Shown one piece after another: positions 2,567 through 50,169 of a DNA stretch of 64,000 nucleotides (position 1 is its first letter; each line of letters starts with the position of its first letter). The position numbers were made by a program, and so were the translations under genes. The notes below the pieces were generated by a model, which saw only the letters and a program-made list of their open reading frames with translations, was not told the origin of the DNA and did not search any database. The stretch is from Desulfosporosinus acidiphilus SJ4 (GTDB lineage Bacteria > Bacillota > Desulfitobacteriia > Desulfitobacteriales > Desulfitobacteriaceae), in NCBI RefSeq assembly GCF_000255115.2, contig NC_018068.1, positions 496,001 through 560,000 of the forward strand, written 5' to 3'.

Positions 2567-3769
2567 ATGGGAAAAGCGAAATACGAACGTACAAAACCAC
2601 ATGTTAACGTTGGAACCATCGGACACGTAGACCACGGTAAAACAACGACCACAGCTGCAATCACTGTTGTTCTTTCTAAAGTCGGCGGTGCTGTAGCTAC
2701 AGCATTTGACCAAATCGACAAAGCTCCGGAAGAGCGTGAACGTGGTATTACCATTTCTACCGCTCACGTTGAGTACGAAACCGAAACCCGTCACTATGCA
2801 CACGTTGACTGCCCAGGGCACGCTGACTATGTCAAGAACATGATCACCGGTGCTGCTCAAATGGACGGCGCAATCCTCGTTGTATCTGCTGCTGACGGTC
2901 CTATGCCGCAAACCCGTGAACACATTCTCTTGGCTCGCCAAGTTGGTGTTCCCAGTATCGTTGTTTGGCTTAATAAAGCCGACATGGTTGATGACGCCGA
3001 ACTTATAGAGCTCGTAGAAATGGAAATTCGTGAACTCTTAAGTTCTTATGAATTTGATGGCGACAATATTCCCATCGTTCCCGGATCTGGACTTAAAGCA
3101 CTGCAATGTGGCTGCGGAAAACGCGATTGCGAGTGGTGCGGAAAAATCTGGAACCTTATGGATGCAGTTGATTCCTACATTCCTACTCCGGAACGTGACA
3201 CCGATAAGCCTTTCTTGATGCCAGTTGAGGATGTTTTCACCATTACCGGTCGTGGTACCGTTGCTACCGGTCGTGTTGAGCGTGGTCAAGTGAAGGTCGG
3301 AGACGAAGTTGAGATCGTCGGATTAAGCACCGCTGCTCGTAAAACTGTTGTAACCGGCGTTGAGATGTTCCGTAAACTCTTAGACCAAGCACAAGCTGGA
3401 GACAATATCGGTGCACTCCTCCGTGGTGTTGAGCGTAAAGATATTGAGCGCGGTCAAGTTTTAGCGAAAACCGGCTCCATTAAACCTCACACCAAGTTTT
3501 CCGGAGAGGTTTACATCCTGAACAAAGAAGAAGGCGGACGTCATACTCCTTTCTTCAACAACTATCGTCCTCAATTCTATTTCCGTACAACCGATGTTAC
3601 CGGTGTAATCGATCTTCCTGAAGGAACTGAAATGGTTATGCCCGGCGACCGTGTAACGATTGATGTTGAACTCATTACTCCAATCGCTATGGAAGAAGGA
3701 CTTCGTTTTGCTATCCGTGAAGGCGGCAGAACTGTAGGTTCAGGAATTGTTGCCAAAATTAACGAGTAA
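2567..3769 (+). CDS. tuf: Elongation factor Tu, with a four-cysteine insertion
   Basis: EF-Tu of 400 residues that delivers aminoacyl-tRNA to the ribosome. G1 GHVDHGKTT (19-27), DCPGHADY near 80 and NKAD near 135 are intact, and domains 2 and 3 are complete. ATG 2567 is chosen because AAAAGGAG ends 8 bases upstream; a GTG at 2558 overlaps that Shine-Dalgarno sequence. Unusual feature: late in the G domain it carries Cys181, Cys183, Cys188 and Cys191 (C-x-C-x4-C-x2-C) where the E. coli protein has an acidic non-cysteine loop. I recall similar motifs in related Clostridia. Confidence 0.97.
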
Positions 3770-3789
3770 TTAGTCTTTTAAAGACACTA

Positions 3790-3822
3790 AATTAGAGAGG
3801 AAGAGATTCTTCCTCTCTAATT
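3790..3822 (+). terminator. Perfect 15-bp hairpin after tuf
   Basis: AATTAGAGAGGAAGA (3790-3804) is perfectly complementary to 3808-3822, around a 3-base loop. It lies 20 bases after the tuf stop. The stem ends in AAUU but there is no following U-run, so it may act as a weak terminator or a 3'-end stabiliser at the str/S10 boundary rather than a strong terminator. Confidence 0.5.
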
Positions 3823-3826
3823 GTGA

Positions 3827-3939
3827 AGGTCAGGTGAAGGAATGCCATCTGACCTCTGATATCTGGAATGGCGCAAAAGGTTGCTAGGCAGGTGACTCCG
3901 CTTGCCTGGGGAATTTTTGCGCTCAACCCGTGTAACGGG
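3827..3939 (+). promoter_or_regulatory. Structured 5' leader of the S10 operon
   Basis: Three further stem-loops follow in the 193-base tuf-rpsJ gap. (i) AGGTCAGGTG (3827-3836) pairs with the strand ending CTGACCT (3846-3855). (ii) GCGCAAAA (3871-3878) pairs with TTTTGCGC (3915-3922) and encloses AGGCA/TGCCT (3886-3890/3903-3907). (iii) CCCG/CGGG (3927-3930/3936-3939) lies just before the rpsJ Shine-Dalgarno sequence. The position fits an autogenous ribosomal-protein leader such as the L4-controlled S10 leader known in enterobacteria. Whether the ligand is the same here is unknown. Confidence 0.5.
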
Positions 3940-3962
3940 AATTTAAGGAGGTAGAATTTAAA

Positions 3963-4268
3963 ATGAGCCAAAAAATCAGAATTCGCTTAAAGGCTTTTGA
4001 TCACAAAACCTTGGATCAATCTGCAGAACGTATTGTAGAAACCGCAAAGAGGACAGGAGCTCAAGTCAGTGGACCGATTCCTCTCCCTACTGAGAAGAAC
4101 ATTTACACAATTTTGCGTTCCCCTCATGTTAACAAGGATTCAAGGGAACAATTTGAGATGCGGACGCATAAGCGCCTCATTGATATCCTTGAGCCTACGT
4201 CAAAAACTGTGGATGCCTTAATGCGCTTAGATCTCCCCGCTGGGGTTGATATTGAGATTAAGCTCTAA
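3963..4268 (+). CDS. rpsJ: 30S ribosomal protein S10
   Basis: S10 (NusE), 101 residues: 30S head protein and partner of NusB in antitermination. It starts [14 protein letters not shown] and carries the family SGPIPLPT and RTHKRLIDI blocks. AAGGAGG lies 8 bases before the ATG. It is the first gene of the S10 cluster, separated from rplC by a 168-base gap that is unusually large for this operon and contains a promoter-like sequence. Confidence 0.98.
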
Positions 4269-4280
4269 TTCTTTATTTTT

Positions 4281-4312
4281 TTGTAGCTTAATTATAAGTC
4301 TTGTGATATAAT
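4281..4312 (+). promoter_or_regulatory. Candidate internal promoter between rpsJ and rplC
   Basis: TATAAT at 4307-4312 is preceded by TG one base upstream (TGATATAAT), a textbook extended -10. A weak -35 match TTGTAG (4281-4286) is 20 bases upstream, longer than ideal, but extended -10 promoters tolerate this. It would give a transcript starting near 4319 with a leader of about 118 bases before rplC. Confidence 0.5.
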
Positions 4313-4377
4313 ATGTTGTACTTGTCGCGAGAAACGCCCGGTAGCGTGTAGAAAAATTGCGATGAGATAAATAAGAT

Positions 4378-4428
4378 GACACTCTCGTGCACCAGAGTAA
4401 TCCGGCGCACTTCAAAGTGTCTAGGAGG
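4378..4428 (+). promoter_or_regulatory. Stem-loop abutting the rplC ribosome-binding site
   Basis: GACACT (4378-4383) pairs with AGTGTC (4416-4421), and inside it GTGC (4387-4390) pairs with GCAC (4407-4410). The Shine-Dalgarno AGGAGG begins two bases after the stem. The placement suggests control of rplC-rplD translation initiation. This structure is seen by eye only. Confidence 0.4.
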
Positions 4429-4436
4429 TGGCATTC

Positions 4437-5066
4437 GTGTCAAAAGGAATTCTAGGTAAAAAAATAGGGATGACCCAAGTCTTCACTAGCGAAGGAAAAG
4501 TCATTCCGGTCACAGTGGTGGAAGCTGGTCCTTGCCCTGTGGTACAAAAGAAGACAGTTGCTACAGACGGATATAATGCTGTTCAACTGGGTTTTTCTGT
4601 ACTTCGTGAAGGATTGACCAACAAGCCTCGCCAAGGACATTTCCAAAAGGCAAACTTGAAGCCTATGCGTTATGTCAGAGAATTCAGGGTAGAAGACATC
4701 GACAGCTATGAAATTGGTCAAGAAGTCAATGCGGACCTGTTTACAGTCGGCGATCGCGTGGATGTCGTTGGTACTTCAAGAGGCAAAGGCTTTGAAGGTA
4801 TGATTAAACGCAACGGTGCCAGCCGCGGACCAATGGCTCACGGTTCAAAATATCATCGTCGCTCAGGTTCCCTTGGCGCGAAAGGCCCGGCTCGTGTTTT
4901 CAAAGGCCGTGTTTTGCCAGGCCGTATGGGCGGCGAGCGTGTAACTGTACAAAACTTGGAGGTCATCCGAGTTGACTTAGATAAAAACCTGATCTTGATC
5001 AAAGGGGCTGTCCCGGGAGCGAAAAAATCATTGCTCATTCTGAAGCCTTCTGTCAAGGCGAAGTAG
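4437..5066 (+). CDS. rplC: 50S ribosomal protein L3
   Basis: L3, 209 residues, an early 50S assembly protein near the peptidyl-transferase centre. The N-terminus [15 protein letters not shown] and the [12 protein letters not shown] block are family signatures. GTG 4437 is chosen over GTG 4428 because the latter is part of the AGGAGGTG Shine-Dalgarno sequence. It is followed by rplD after 23 bases. Confidence 0.97.
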
Positions 5067-8189: not shown

Positions 8190-8627
8190 ATGTTAGTCCC
8201 AACCAGAGTGAAACATAGAAAACAACATCGTGGTCGTTTGACCGGTAAAGCGACTCGTGGAACTACGATTACCTTTGGCCAATATGGTCTGGTAGCCCTG
8301 GAAAGCGGTTGGATAACCAATCGTCAAATCGAGGCCGCTCGTATCGCCATGACCCGTTATATTAAACGGGGCGGTCAAGTATGGATTAAAATTTTCCCTG
8401 ATAAGCCAATTACGGCAAAACCGGCTGAAACTCGTATGGGCAGCGGAAAAGGCTCGCCTGAGTATTGGGTAGCCGTTGTGAAACCCGGCCGTGTCATGTT
8501 TGAACTCGACGGCGTTGCAGAAGAAGTCGCCCGCGAAGCTCTTCGCTTGGCAATGCATAAGCTTCCGATCAAATGTAAGATCGCTTCCCGTGCAGATTTA
8601 CTAGGAGGTGACGCAAATGAAAACTAA
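8190..8627 (+). CDS. rplP: 50S ribosomal protein L16
   Basis: L16, 145 residues, supports the A-site and ribosome maturation. Starts [15 protein letters not shown] and contains the [24 protein letters not shown] signature. It begins directly after the rpsC stop and its 3' end overlaps rpmC by 11 bases, so the three genes are translationally coupled. Confidence 0.97.
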
Positions 8628-8820
8628 GGATTTCCGTGATCTGACAAATGACGAAGTCGTTAAGCAGATCGACGATTACAAAACCGAACTGTTTAATTTG
8701 CGTTTCCAATTGGCAACGGGTCAACTTGATAACCCAATGCGAATTCGTGAAATCCGCAAAGGTATTGCTCGCGGCAAAACGATTTTGCGTGAACGTGAGT
8801 TAAAGATCGAACGTTCTTAA
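8617..8820 (+). CDS. rpmC: 50S ribosomal protein L29
   Basis: L29, 67 residues, exit-tunnel rim protein next to L23. [18 protein letters not shown] is the usual helical N-terminus. ATG 8617 is chosen with AGGAGGTG just upstream; it lies inside the end of rplP in another frame. Confidence 0.96.
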
Positions 8821-8843
8821 GTTGAGAAAGGAGGCTTTATAGC

Positions 8844-9104
8844 GTGGAAAGAGCCCAGCGTAAAGTTCGGATCGGCAAAGTAGTCAGCGATAAGATGGAC
8901 AAAACCATTGTTGTGTCTGTTGAAATTACTGAAAGCCATCCCTTATATAAAAAGACATTTACTCGCACAAAGAAATTTAAAGCTCATGATGAGAACAACG
9001 AAGCTCATATCGGAGATACTGTTTCAATCATGGAAACCCGCCGTTTAAGTAAGGATAAATGCTGGCGCATGGTTAAAGTTCTGGAAAGGGCTGTAGCGCT
9101 CTAA
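8844..9104 (+). CDS. rpsQ: 30S ribosomal protein S17
   Basis: S17, 86 residues, primary 16S rRNA binder. It has the OB-fold block [17 protein letters not shown] and the [13 protein letters not shown] loop. GTG start with GAAAGGAGG upstream. Ordinary member. Confidence 0.97.
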
Positions 9105-46926: not shown

Positions 46927-47583
46927 CTAGCTTCTTTTAGGCGGAGGCTTTCGTTCATACCCTGAAACCATAGCCTGGAGATGGCTGAGATTCTCTGTAA
47001 TGCTAAGATATATGTGCAGTGAGATCGTCGCCAAGAAGTAAATGGTGATGGAAAATTTTATCCACCTTAGCCGTTGAAAACCACCGACTAATCTCCATAC
47101 CCAAATGAGATGCTCTCCATGCCAATAGGAAGATAAGCCGAGAAGGCTGGCAATCAGGAAAAGAGGGAGCCAGGAAAAGTAAATAAGACTTTGCCCGCTG
47201 TTATATTTGCGACTGAGAGGAGGAGCGGGACGCAGGAATAGGTAGTATGCTACAAGTTTAGGGAATACCTTGAAATCACGTAGTTTAGGAATGAGAGATT
47301 GGTCCTGCCGGAGAATTGCATCTGTACAACGCAGAGCCACAAATCCGAGGGCAAACCAACTTGATATTACATGAATTTCAAACATATCGCCATAGGAAAC
47401 CGCAAGAAACTTGGCTGGTTTATGTAATTCTAAACCACTTAACAGGATTCCGGTCAGACTGACGGCAAATCCCCAATGAAAAATCCTTACCAATAAAGGC
47501 TGAAAAAGAATAATTTCTCCCTTGACCTTTCCCTTTTGCAGTTCTTTGAAAAAAGTTTTCCTCAATTTATTCTTATGTTTCAT
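46927..47583 (-). CDS. hyaC: Hydrogenase cytochrome b subunit
   Basis: Di-haem membrane cytochrome b that passes electrons from the periplasmic [NiFe] dimer to the quinone pool. 218 residues, four hydrophobic helices. Candidate haem-ligating histidines are in RIFHWGF, FEIHVISSW, YWHGEH and SLHIYLS. Third gene of the operon, 58 bases after the large subunit. Strongly basic N- and C-termini suggest both face the cytoplasm. Confidence 0.88.
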   Translation of the reverse strand: MKHKNKLRKTFFKELQKGKVKGEIILFQPLLVRIFHWGFAVSLTGILLSGLELHKPAKFLAVSYGDMFEIHVISSWFALGFVALRCTDAILRQDQSLIPKLRDFKVFPKLVAYYLFLRPAPPLSRKYNSGQSLIYFSWLPLFLIASLLGLSSYWHGEHLIWVWRLVGGFQRLRWIKFSITIYFLATISLHIYLSITENLSHLQAMVSGYERKPPPKRS

Positions 47584-47641: not shown

Positions 47642-49033
47642 TTATTTAATTCCTAAAGTCCGAGTATGTTCGCCGTCAATTAAATGAACACTGCAGGAAA
47701 AACAGGGATCAAAAGAACGGATGACTCTGCCGGCCTCCTTAAGGTCCTCTGATTGGACCTTCAATCCCAGCAAGGATGATTCTCCTACGCTGCGAGTTCC
47801 TGACTCGTCTCTGGCACCAAAATTAAAGGCCGAGGGAGTAATGATCTGGTAGTGCTCTACCCGACCGTTTTTAACCTGAAGCCAATGGCCTAAAAAGCCA
47901 CGCATAGCTTCGTGGAGACCTACACTGCTTCCTGAGTTTTGTTTGATTTTGCAGTTGAGGGTTTCTGCCCCCGGTTCGAGGCGATTCAGCCACACCAGCG
48001 TTGCCAGAGCGATCTTCTTGATTTCGAGGGACCGTGCCCATATTCTTGCCAGAGCTCCATGCCCTATGACCTTTTCTTTATTGATAATCGCTCGCGCTAA
48101 AGGGCCGACTTCGACCGGCTGACCACGATAACGGGGAGACTTCACCCATGTGTATCCTTTGTTCTGGCTATGATCGGGAATTGTATCTTCTACTGAAGGG
48201 TGAAGTGGTCCATGAGGCTTATACCAGGCGTGGGTTACATCTTCGGTAATATATTTCTCATAAAAGCTTTGCCTTTCATCCAGAATAAGGACTCCTTGGG
48301 GAAACAGCGTACCCCCCTCGGGATTTGGAAATCCCCCCACAGAGATATAATTTCCATTTCCTGCGCCGATATCTACATAGTCCGGGTACCGCTTTATAAT
48401 TAAGTCGACATCCGGGAGGAGTGTATCGTCCAGAAAGCTTAAGATTTCTATAATATACCCTCGATAGCGGTTGACCTTGTCGGCGTCAACTTCCATACTG
48501 GCCCCTCCCGGTACAATTCCGTGACCATGGGGAGCCTTTCCGCCAAATACTGCAAAGGCGGCGTGAGCGGCCCGAGAAATTTCCAAGGCTTTAAAATAAT
48601 GCTCGCTGAGAAGGGTATTTTCTTGTTTGGAAAGACGCAGGTCGGATTCCGAATGGGGAATAAACGGAGCAAGATCCGGACCGCGAAAATAATCCGGCAA
48701 TGCATATAAATATAGGTGACGAATATGATTCTGAATCATATCACTGGCAAAGATTAGATTGCGGATTAAAATACCATTAGGAGGAACCTCCATTCCCAAG
48801 GCTTTCTCCACGGCCAAGGCAGCTGTAATGGCATGAGCGGAAGAACAGATACCACAAATGCGTTGAGTGTAATAAGGCATATCCATGGGGGAGCGGCCAA
48901 TCAGAATTTGTTCAAATCCTCTGTAGAGGGTATCGGAAATAAAGGCATCTTTGATTTCTCCATTGTCTAACCATGCCTCTAACAACATCGGATTGTGAAT
49001 GCGAGTTACAGGGAAAATGACCTTTTTATTCAG
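47642..49033 (-). CDS. hyaB: [NiFe] hydrogenase large subunit (probable CTG start)
   Basis: Catalytic subunit with the Ni-Fe site: RICGICSSAHA near the N-terminus and DPCFSCSVH near the C-terminus supply the four Cys ligands. The 15-residue tail after the final His is the peptide removed by a maturation protease. ATG 48988 would drop the conserved TRIHNP segment; the frame is open to a TGA, and the only plausible start is CTG 49033, which has AAGGAG at 9-base spacing. This gives 463 residues. Maturation genes are not in the window. Confidence 0.9.
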   Translation of the reverse strand: MNKKVIFPVTRIHNPMLLEAWLDNGEIKDAFISDTLYRGFEQILIGRSPMDMPYYTQRICGICSSAHAITAALAVEKALGMEVPPNGILIRNLIFASDMIQNHIRHLYLYALPDYFRGPDLAPFIPHSESDLRLSKQENTLLSEHYFKALEISRAAHAAFAVFGGKAPHGHGIVPGGASMEVDADKVNRYRGYIIEILSFLDDTLLPDVDLIIKRYPDYVDIGAGNGNYISVGGFPNPEGGTLFPQGVLILDERQSFYEKYITEDVTHAWYKPHGPLHPSVEDTIPDHSQNKGYTWVKSPRYRGQPVEVGPLARAIINKEKVIGHGALARIWARSLEIKKIALATLVWLNRLEPGAETLNCKIKQNSGSSVGLHEAMRGFLGHWLQVKNGRVEHYQIITPSAFNFGARDESGTRSVGESSLLGLKVQSEDLKEAGRVIRSFDPCFSCSVHLIDGEHTRTLGIK

Positions 49034-49050: not shown

Positions 49051-50169
49051 TTAAGATTTTTTGACACGATAGCGATGAAAAGTTTTTGCTTTTTTGAGGG
49101 TAAATCGATGTTTCCCCCGCACAGTGGACTTCAGCATATTTCTTTGTATTCTTCCCGTATAAAGAGAAGCCGAAACATGACCAACTATCGCTGCAGTAGT
49201 TAAGCCTAATACTCCCAGGCCAACAGAATCGGTTGTGACCTTTGTTCCGCCGGGCAGGGAAATATCAGGCAGGTGAGCGGTAAATGGGGACATTAGATCA
49301 GGATAGCCCGGCTCCGTACAGCCGATACAAGGAGTATTGCAGCCAATGGGCCAATTATAGCGATCATTCCAGCGCCGAATCGGACAATCGGCATAGGTAA
49401 CCGGTCCTTTACACCCCACCCGATAAAGGCATTCTTTCTGACCAATTTCTGTGGCAAAAATTCCTTGGTCATAAAAGTATCTCCGCGGACATCGATTATG
49501 AATAGTTTCGCCGTAAAACATCTTTGGCCTTCCGTACTTTTCTAGCTCCGGCTCACCATAAAGAGCTAGGTGAAGTAAGGTACCCATAATCCAATCCGGG
49601 TGAGCAGGGCAGCCCGAGACATTAATGACTCTTCGCTCAGGAAGGATATTTTGTACTCCCGTTGCCCGAGTTGGATTGGGATAACCGGAAACCGGCCCCC
49701 CGTAAGCAGCACAACTTCCTATAGCGACGACATATTTGGCTTTTAGGCCAAAGCGGCGTACCAGGTCTATTCCGGTGGTGAGTTTGCCCTGCTCGTAGGC
49801 AACATGGTCGTAATGTCCGGCGTCGCTGCGAATCATAGCTCCCTGGACAAGAAGGACGTATTCGTAAGGCATTTTGGTATACGTATCTTGAAGAACTTGG
49901 TAAACGGCATCCCCTTGAGCTTGATTCATGCTCCAATCGTAGCGCCAATCAAGGATGTTGGAAAGAATATCGGAAAAAGTCGGGGTCCAGATATTATCAA
50001 AGGAGATGCTGTCTCCTGTACAAGTACCTGTTTCAATCATTACTACCGGAAGCTTTTTAACGTCACCTGCCGTAACTGCTTGAGCCAGGGGAGGGGTAAT
50101 AAGTTTATAAAAGTTACCCAGAATAGCTCCCTTGACGATTAGTTTTATAAACTCACGACGATCCAGCAT
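49051..50169 (-). CDS. hyaA: [NiFe] hydrogenase small subunit, Tat-exported, Asp in place of a cluster cysteine
   Basis: Electron-transfer subunit with three Fe-S clusters. 372 residues: Tat signal RREFIK (4-9) with hydrophobic stretch to about 34; proximal-cluster motif is CTGD (Cys50, Asp53) rather than the usual CTGC; other ligands in GSCAAYGG, SGCPAHPDW, IHNRC, CLYRVGC, ADC and PCIGC are present, with the Pro of the medial [3Fe-4S] motif. A C-terminal membrane anchor spans roughly 308-332. First gene of the operon, transported with HyaB as a folded pair. Confidence 0.92.
   Translation of the reverse strand: MLDRREFIKLIVKGAILGNFYKLITPPLAQAVTAGDVKKLPVVMIETGTCTGDSISFDNIWTPTFSDILSNILDWRYDWSMNQAQGDAVYQVLQDTYTKMPYEYVLLVQGAMIRSDAGHYDHVAYEQGKLTTGIDLVRRFGLKAKYVVAIGSCAAYGGPVSGYPNPTRATGVQNILPERRVINVSGCPAHPDWIMGTLLHLALYGEPELEKYGRPKMFYGETIHNRCPRRYFYDQGIFATEIGQKECLYRVGCKGPVTYADCPIRRWNDRYNWPIGCNTPCIGCTEPGYPDLMSPFTAHLPDISLPGGTKVTTDSVGLGVLGLTTAAIVGHVSASLYTGRIQRNMLKSTVRGKHRFTLKKAKTFHRYRVKKS

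Follow-up and report, generated by a model that had tools for sequence, protein, structure and literature searches.

The window analysed here, a stretch of 64,000 nucleotides from Desulfosporosinus acidiphilus SJ4 (NC_018068.1, positions 496,001 to 560,000), contains a hydrogenase locus of three genes on its minus strand, in which the gene for the small subunit is followed by the gene for the large subunit and then by a gene for a cytochrome b. The genome comprises 4,991,181 bases in three contigs. The [NiFe]-hydrogenase small subunit (49051..50169, minus strand) is encoded by an intact open reading frame, whose 372-residue product belongs to the TIGR00391 family (238.9 bits, against a curated cut-off of 179.5) and also scores above the cut-offs of PF14720 and PF01058. 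Among the best 80 of 117 relatives, its nearest named relative is that of Desulfosporosinus acididurans (87%). The small subunit starts with MLDRREFIKL, and on the Tat consensus we take DRREFIKL to be a Tat-type signal, whose twin arginine, R4-R5, was read by eye at 50155..50160 (minus strand). Its C-terminus has a hydrophobic segment, and residues 313-337 form a helix in an AlphaFold2 model of overall low confidence.

The large subunit (47642..49033, minus strand) was identified by profile matches and has intact L1 (RICGICSSAH) and L2 (DPCFSCSVH) motifs. No ATG, GTG or TTG is present at its expected start, where an in-frame CTG (49031-49033, minus strand) lies behind AAGGAG. Since the same in-frame CTG behind AAGGAG recurs in several orthologues, translation probably starts at this CTG at 49033 rather than at the ATG at 48988. 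The third gene (46927..47583, minus strand) encodes a membrane subunit of the cytochrome b type (PF01292, 61.7 bits, cut-off 30.1), which remains below the cut-off of the Ni/Fe-hydrogenase b-type cytochrome model TIGR02125 (53.8 of 121.5 bits). The operon contains no maturation protease gene, and two such genes are located elsewhere in the genome. The Tat-type signal and the adjoining cytochrome b gene bear out the description in the earlier note of a Tat-exported, cytochrome b-linked enzyme and, Desulfosporosinus being a genus of anaerobes, its description of the host as an apparent anaerobe stands as well.

The proximal cluster of such small subunits normally has a CxxC motif. At this position the D. 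acidiphilus protein reads C50-T-G-D53 (50011..50022, minus strand; TGT ACA GGA GAC), in frame with the open reading frame of the 372-residue protein, which runs from 50169 to 49051. Re-reading of the minus-strand codon and its frame confirmed that position 53 is Asp, encoded by GAC (50011..50013). According to the earlier note all other ligands of the Fe-S clusters are present, and the alignment agrees: in addition to C50, nine other Cys/His ligands are found. These are (i) the proximal ligands Cys153 (49711..49713) and Cys187 (49609..49611), (ii) the distal ligands H224, C227, C247 and C253 (49411..49500), and (iii) the medial ligands C262, C281 and C284 (49318..49386), all on the minus strand. 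The usual fourth medial position, which is Cys in a [4Fe-4S] medial cluster, is occupied by Pro274 within the same interval, as in the [3Fe-4S] type. The AlphaFold2 model of the small subunit is poor (mean pLDDT 66.7, residues 51-64 below 50) and is uninformative at the site. The other two small subunits of this genome keep the cysteine, with CTGC in L003 and CTCC in L002. The latter (L002:1414-2538; C3:1871271-1872260 of the genome) has a further Cys in NACVQGAHPNPT, as in the O2-tolerant Hyd-1 (GCVQ).

The set of orthologues more than 60% identical to the small subunit comprises 31 distinct sequences, one of which is a contig fragment that starts past the motif. Position 53 is Asp in all 30 readable ones, the gene itself counted, and it is encoded by GAC in 16 and by GAT in 14. 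A sequencing error or a decayed gene therefore has a negligible probability, as the same residue recurs across many genomes with both Asp codons and the genes are intact. The orthologues likewise exclude a mutation private to this gene. Conservation of the residue with use of both codons indicates that Asp53 is kept by selection. Nor does a cysteine elsewhere appear to take over the role of the missing ligand, which the earlier note had named as an observation that would overturn its reading. In an alignment of 13 small subunits no cysteine is invariant apart from C50 and the other eight that act as ligands. In the large subunit, Cys exceeds one half in any group only at the four catalytic columns, so that no conserved substitute is evident in either subunit.

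To place this protein among its relatives, sequences were collected from several sources. Of 60 related genomes, 52 had a match; a scan of GTDB genomes provided 79 loci for the best 80 of 117 relatives; and a scan of the same phylum gave matches in 168 of 398 genomes, from which the best 30 loci were read together with 40 selected from the lower matches. A total of 60 further stretches, these lower matches among them, were added, and plasmids supplied yardstick sequences. Weaker matches, mostly 32-38% identical, were left out save L002 and L003, and a Cys-bearing member of the clade described below could thus be missed. A scan of viral contigs gave 11 pattern matches and no relative. A profile search of the collection produced 201 matches, corresponding to 150 distinct sequences, of which 92 were used as representatives in a small-subunit tree after clustering at 82% identity and removal of rows lacking the motif or having fewer than 200 aligned residues. 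The tree was built without the trait columns. A large-subunit tree was built from the 84 of these 92 that have an adjoining large subunit of more than 300 amino acids.

Positions 50 and 53 of the 141 distinct sequences of loci L001-L192, which we took as Bacillota together with one Armatimonadota metagenome-assembled genome (MAG), read CD in 70, CN in 41, CC in 11, CE in 10, SN in seven and CG in one, with one unread; these counts do not represent prevalence, because the sequences were gathered by similarity to an alignment rich in D and N. In the small-subunit tree, 73 of the 92 representatives group in a single clade with a support of 100/99, and the same clade is present in the large-subunit tree with the 65 members that have a usable large subunit (support 97/91). 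Among the clade members read, 30 have CN, 30 CD, six SN, six CE and one CG, and none has CC. Position 53 is hence N in 36 members, six of which also lack C50, D in 30, E in six and G in one, the single Gly being that of L119, a MAG. On the whole tree the distinction between Cys and non-Cys needs four changes and the identity of the residue at position 53 needs 21. Because all 73 non-Cys representatives of the L001-L192 set group together without any CC, a single loss of the cysteine is probable in this clade, after which D, N and E would have been swapped many times. Other non-Cys residues lie outside the clade: the group-2a-like rows have Asn, as does an enzyme of Sulfurimonas that branches near Hyd-2, whereas HofK and a relative of it from Kitasatospora have Asp. 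A Sulfurimonas plasmid (L200) encodes two small subunits, one with CNGN and one with CAGN (966-1904 and 3249-4547), which are located on separate branches of the tree.

Several other features of the clade were read from the alignments. At position 59, Asn is shared by 71 of the 73 members, but it is also present in 8 of 14 CxxC rows. C262 is absent in L161, L167 and L171. In the large subunits, the catalytic Cys columns are kept in all five SN rows and, for the other clade rows, in 60 of 60 at L1 and in 54 of 60 at L2, a number that may be affected by several large subunits that end at a locus edge. L2 variants are present in L098 and L138 (FDVCSACATH and FDICSACASH), and many other rows run beyond L2 or stop at a locus edge; with regard to selenocysteine, no tail read among the relatives that fail the L2 pattern ends in DP followed by TGA. 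A gene for cytochrome b lies near at least 35 of the 73 clade members, a lower bound since many of the loci are cut short, and the fetched locus of the window itself was scored as lacking one. In Alkalihalophilus pseudofirmus, an open reading frame that by eye resembles a cytochrome b5-type heme domain (L117:5384-5920) precedes a small subunit with CSGN.

Two side observations concern the large subunits. At position 99, in the aligned row that starts with FPVTRI (QNHIRH, a His-rich stretch), 61 of the 65 clade members have Arg, and 13 of 14 CxxC relatives have Leu, Thr, Val or Ile. Furthermore, three large-subunit homologues (L168:2150-3637, L174:4550-5893 and L175:1754-3100) lack both L1 cysteines (e.g. 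QRTNGLDFVAH) and end at RSF, right before DPCxxC, next to CxxC small subunits. These apparently belong to hydrogenase-like complexes without a NiFe site.

One subclade has departed further from the four-cysteine arrangement. Seven distinct sequences (L120:5983-6990, L122, L180, L182, L183, L184 and L186), corresponding to six representatives, have DSGDNN at the motif, with Ser at the position of C50 and Asn at position 53; a Pelotomaculum is among the carriers. The aligned domain contains eight cysteines in one representative and nine or ten in the other five. Since that one representative has the eight remaining ligand cysteines only, C153 and C187 are the sole conserved proximal cysteines in this subclade. 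L1 and L2 are kept in six of the seven adjoining large subunits, that of L180 being split over two open reading frames. In L120 the genes lie beside open reading frames that by eye resemble hypF, hypD and hypE, and the small subunit of this locus has no Tat signal. In the stretches collected for the six representatives, the search for a cytochrome b gave nothing. In L120 the hydrogenase genes are followed by an open reading frame that by eye is ferritin- or rubrerythrin-like (8455-9072). The DSGDNN subclade is stranger than Asp53 itself, and it raises the question of which cluster, if any, these proteins carry at the proximal site.

Comparison with known enzymes puts the substitution into context. 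The best solved relative of the small subunit, 1frv, has CTGC (E 9.3e-54). The closest solved large subunits are those of [NiFeSe] hydrogenases (5jsu, E 4.6e-87), and assignment to that type was rejected on scores of 225.4 of 470 bits (NF045520) and 423.7 of 600 bits (NF033181) and on the presence of Cys, and no selenocysteine, in L2. The O2-tolerant membrane-bound enzymes of group 1d, with a [4Fe-3S] cluster and extra proximal cysteines, have CTCC in HoxK and Hyd-1 versus CTGD here, and this group was rejected as well. Huc of group 2a (PDB 7uur, E 1e-27) has a non-Cys residue, Asn, in the same column. L196, a relative of Huc, carries Lys at position 274 and Gln in place of the distal His, and membership of group 2a was rejected because Asn at the second proximal position goes together with Lys274 in L196 and Huc, versus Asp53 and Pro274 here. 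The closest likeness by description is to three-Cys variants among the group 1 respiratory uptake enzymes, which share the Tat-type small subunit, the C-terminal anchor, the b-type cytochrome and L1/L2. According to PMC5364354, one proximal Cys is exchanged for Asn or Asp in enzymes of group 1f from Roseiflexus, Geobacter and Frankia; in other enzymes of groups 1b, 1f and 1g no more than three cysteines serve the proximal cluster, and in group 2a this position is Asn. Table 1 of PMC4070099 gives Asp for Geobacter metalloreducens and Asn for N. punctiforme at the second proximal position. The occurrence of Asp or Asn there in some enzymes of groups 1b, 1f, 1g and 2a is thus already in print, and the CxxD motif described here is another example of a known substitution. 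The excerpts of PMC9888536 and PMC6372793 give hydrogenase groups for Desulfitobacterium and Desulfosporosinus, including a group 1a enzyme in D. hafniense, and contain nothing on the ligand, and nothing on the proximal-ligand question was drawn from those of PMC10657181, PMC13111528, PMC9012536, PMC11018855 and PMC5037454. Searches of an open-licence library, from which most subscription papers are absent, turned up neither the mixed D/N/E clade nor its subclade that is two cysteines short.

The earlier note had likened the motif to that of the actinobacterial-type hydrogenase of Ralstonia, where Asp goes with unusual O2 behaviour. The residue itself bears the comparison, as HofK of Ralstonia/Cupriavidus HofKG (group 1h/5, PDB 5aa5) has CDGD with Asp in the same alignment column, and the D. 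acidiphilus protein shares its CxxD pattern. The resemblance does not extend much further. The similarity of HofK to our small subunit is weak (E 8.4e-27) and covers only residues 135-301, positions 262 and 274 are Val and Cys in HofK, and L1 and L2 of HofKG read RICGICGDNH and DPCLPCGVH versus RICGICSSAH and DPCFSCSVH here. Group 1h enzymes have TSRICGICGDNH as L1 and SFDPCLPCGVH as L2 and are said to lack a Tat signal and a C-terminal membrane helix (PMC5364354); the D. acidiphilus motifs differ, and both the signal (by eye) and the helix (in the low-confidence model) are present in its small subunit. Membership of group 1h was rejected on the L1/L2 motifs and the Tat signal. HofK branches apart from the clade in the best trees of both subunits, and in that of the small subunit it shares a separate long branch with its Kitasatospora relative. 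However, trees that join them with the clade are not rejected by the AU test (p-AU 0.229 for the small and 0.108 for the large subunit), and for this reason an origin separate from HofK is favoured, and no more than that.

That Asp would confer O2 insensitivity or a high affinity, the effect suggested for the actinobacterial-type enzyme, is on balance very improbable, even though the same residue stands in the same column and the AU test does not reject a common clade. The named carriers in the clade, which include Desulfosporosinus, Sporomusa, Pelosinus, Pelotomaculum and others, are mostly anaerobes. The two named Bacillaceae, Alkalihalophilus pseudofirmus (L117) and Alteribacter natronophilus (L121), carry Asn and not Asp, and the better candidate for O2 tolerance in the D. 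acidiphilus genome is L002, which has CTCC and groups with Hyd-1 and HoxK. Given the mixture of D, N and E, the anaerobic carriers, the absence of the other group 1h features and a substitution that is common in relatives and already in print, a link of Asp53 to O2 tolerance is unsupported.

Our best reading is that the locus encodes an H2-uptake enzyme whose proximal cluster would be held by three Cys and one oxygen-donor residue, as either [4Fe-4S](Cys)3(Asp) or [3Fe-4S]. In this enzyme the small subunit, large subunit and cytochrome b would form a Tat-exported, membrane-anchored uptake [NiFe]-hydrogenase that passes electrons from H2 via the cytochrome b to the (mena)quinone pool. The proximal cluster would be bound by C50, C153 and C187, with an oxygen of Asp53 replacing the fourth cysteine. 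It would most likely be [4Fe-4S](Cys)3(Asp) with a raised potential, from which the Asp-bound iron can leave to give [3Fe-4S], and H2 oxidation would be favoured over H2 production, the medial cluster also being of the [3Fe-4S] type. We infer the cluster type, its potential, the catalytic bias and the quinone as acceptor, and we assign a probability of about 0.6 to this uptake enzyme with a [4Fe-4S] cluster ligated by Asp53 as a whole. PMC7174314 and PMC5364354 state that the HofK Asp coordinates the proximal [4Fe-4S] cluster. According to PMC4070099, C81D and C81N at the second proximal position, introduced into the G1 variant (H230C/P285C) of the enzyme from Alteromonas macleodii, resulted in lowered yet measurable activity. 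These data, the Asp of all 30 readable close orthologues and an oxygen-donor side chain (D, N or E) in 72 of the 73 clade representatives argue for Asp53 as a ligand of a [4Fe-4S] cluster, and the intact L1 and L2, the complete set of other cluster ligands and the adjoining cytochrome b gene agree with the enzyme as proposed. Against it count the Asn of Huc, the Gly member (L119) and the subclade without C50. It should be noted that the interchange of D, N and E is explained equally well by a fourth iron that is missing or only loosely bound as by an Asp ligand.

The interchange also agrees with a proximal [3Fe-4S] cluster as in Huc, where a polar residue would be needed at position 53 and Asp53 would only contact the cluster without being its ligand. 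Huc has CSGN (7uur_D), with Asn in the same column, and its three clusters are reported, in PMC10017518, to be [3Fe-4S] on the basis of the density, the fourth coordinating residue and EPR, that fourth residue presumably being the Asn. Consistent with this alternative, N is the commonest residue at position 53 (36 of 73), and Pro occupies the medial position 274 in all clade rows but L161, L164, L165 and L171 (69 of 73). However, Asp is a better ligand than Asn and is reported to bind in HofK, and all 30 readable near orthologues have it, which leaves a Huc-like proximal cluster as a serious though unlikely alternative. Functionless drift, in which any tolerated residue could follow the single loss of the cysteine, would account for four states (N, D, E and G) in the clade and for the 21 or more changes that the tree as a whole requires. 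It is improbable, as 72 of the 73 representatives have D, N or E, the remaining one being a Gly in a MAG, and as Asp is strictly conserved in the 30 readable close orthologues. We therefore retain an Asp-ligated [4Fe-4S] cluster as the preferred reading.

In a wider sense, the trees and alignments suggest, at what we consider even odds, that Bacillota harbor a large and old clade of [NiFe]-hydrogenases in which the fourth proximal Cys was lost once and not regained in the members read, an oxygen donor (Asp, Asn or Glu) was kept, and one subclade, that with DSGDNN, went down to two proximal cysteines. The residue concerned belongs to the cluster nearest the active site, and its identity hence bears on the catalytic bias and on the reaction with O2. 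Within the clade, anaerobes supply one enzyme in natural variants with Asp, Asn (as in Sporomusa ovata) or Glu (as in Pelosinus propionicus), by which the effect of the ligand becomes separable from oxygen, and CxxD should not be read as a marker of O2 tolerance. If the view presented here is true, this branch, with its menaquinone-linked and soluble enzymes of anaerobes, would as a rule have proximal clusters not ligated by four thiolates, and this would be unrelated to oxygen.
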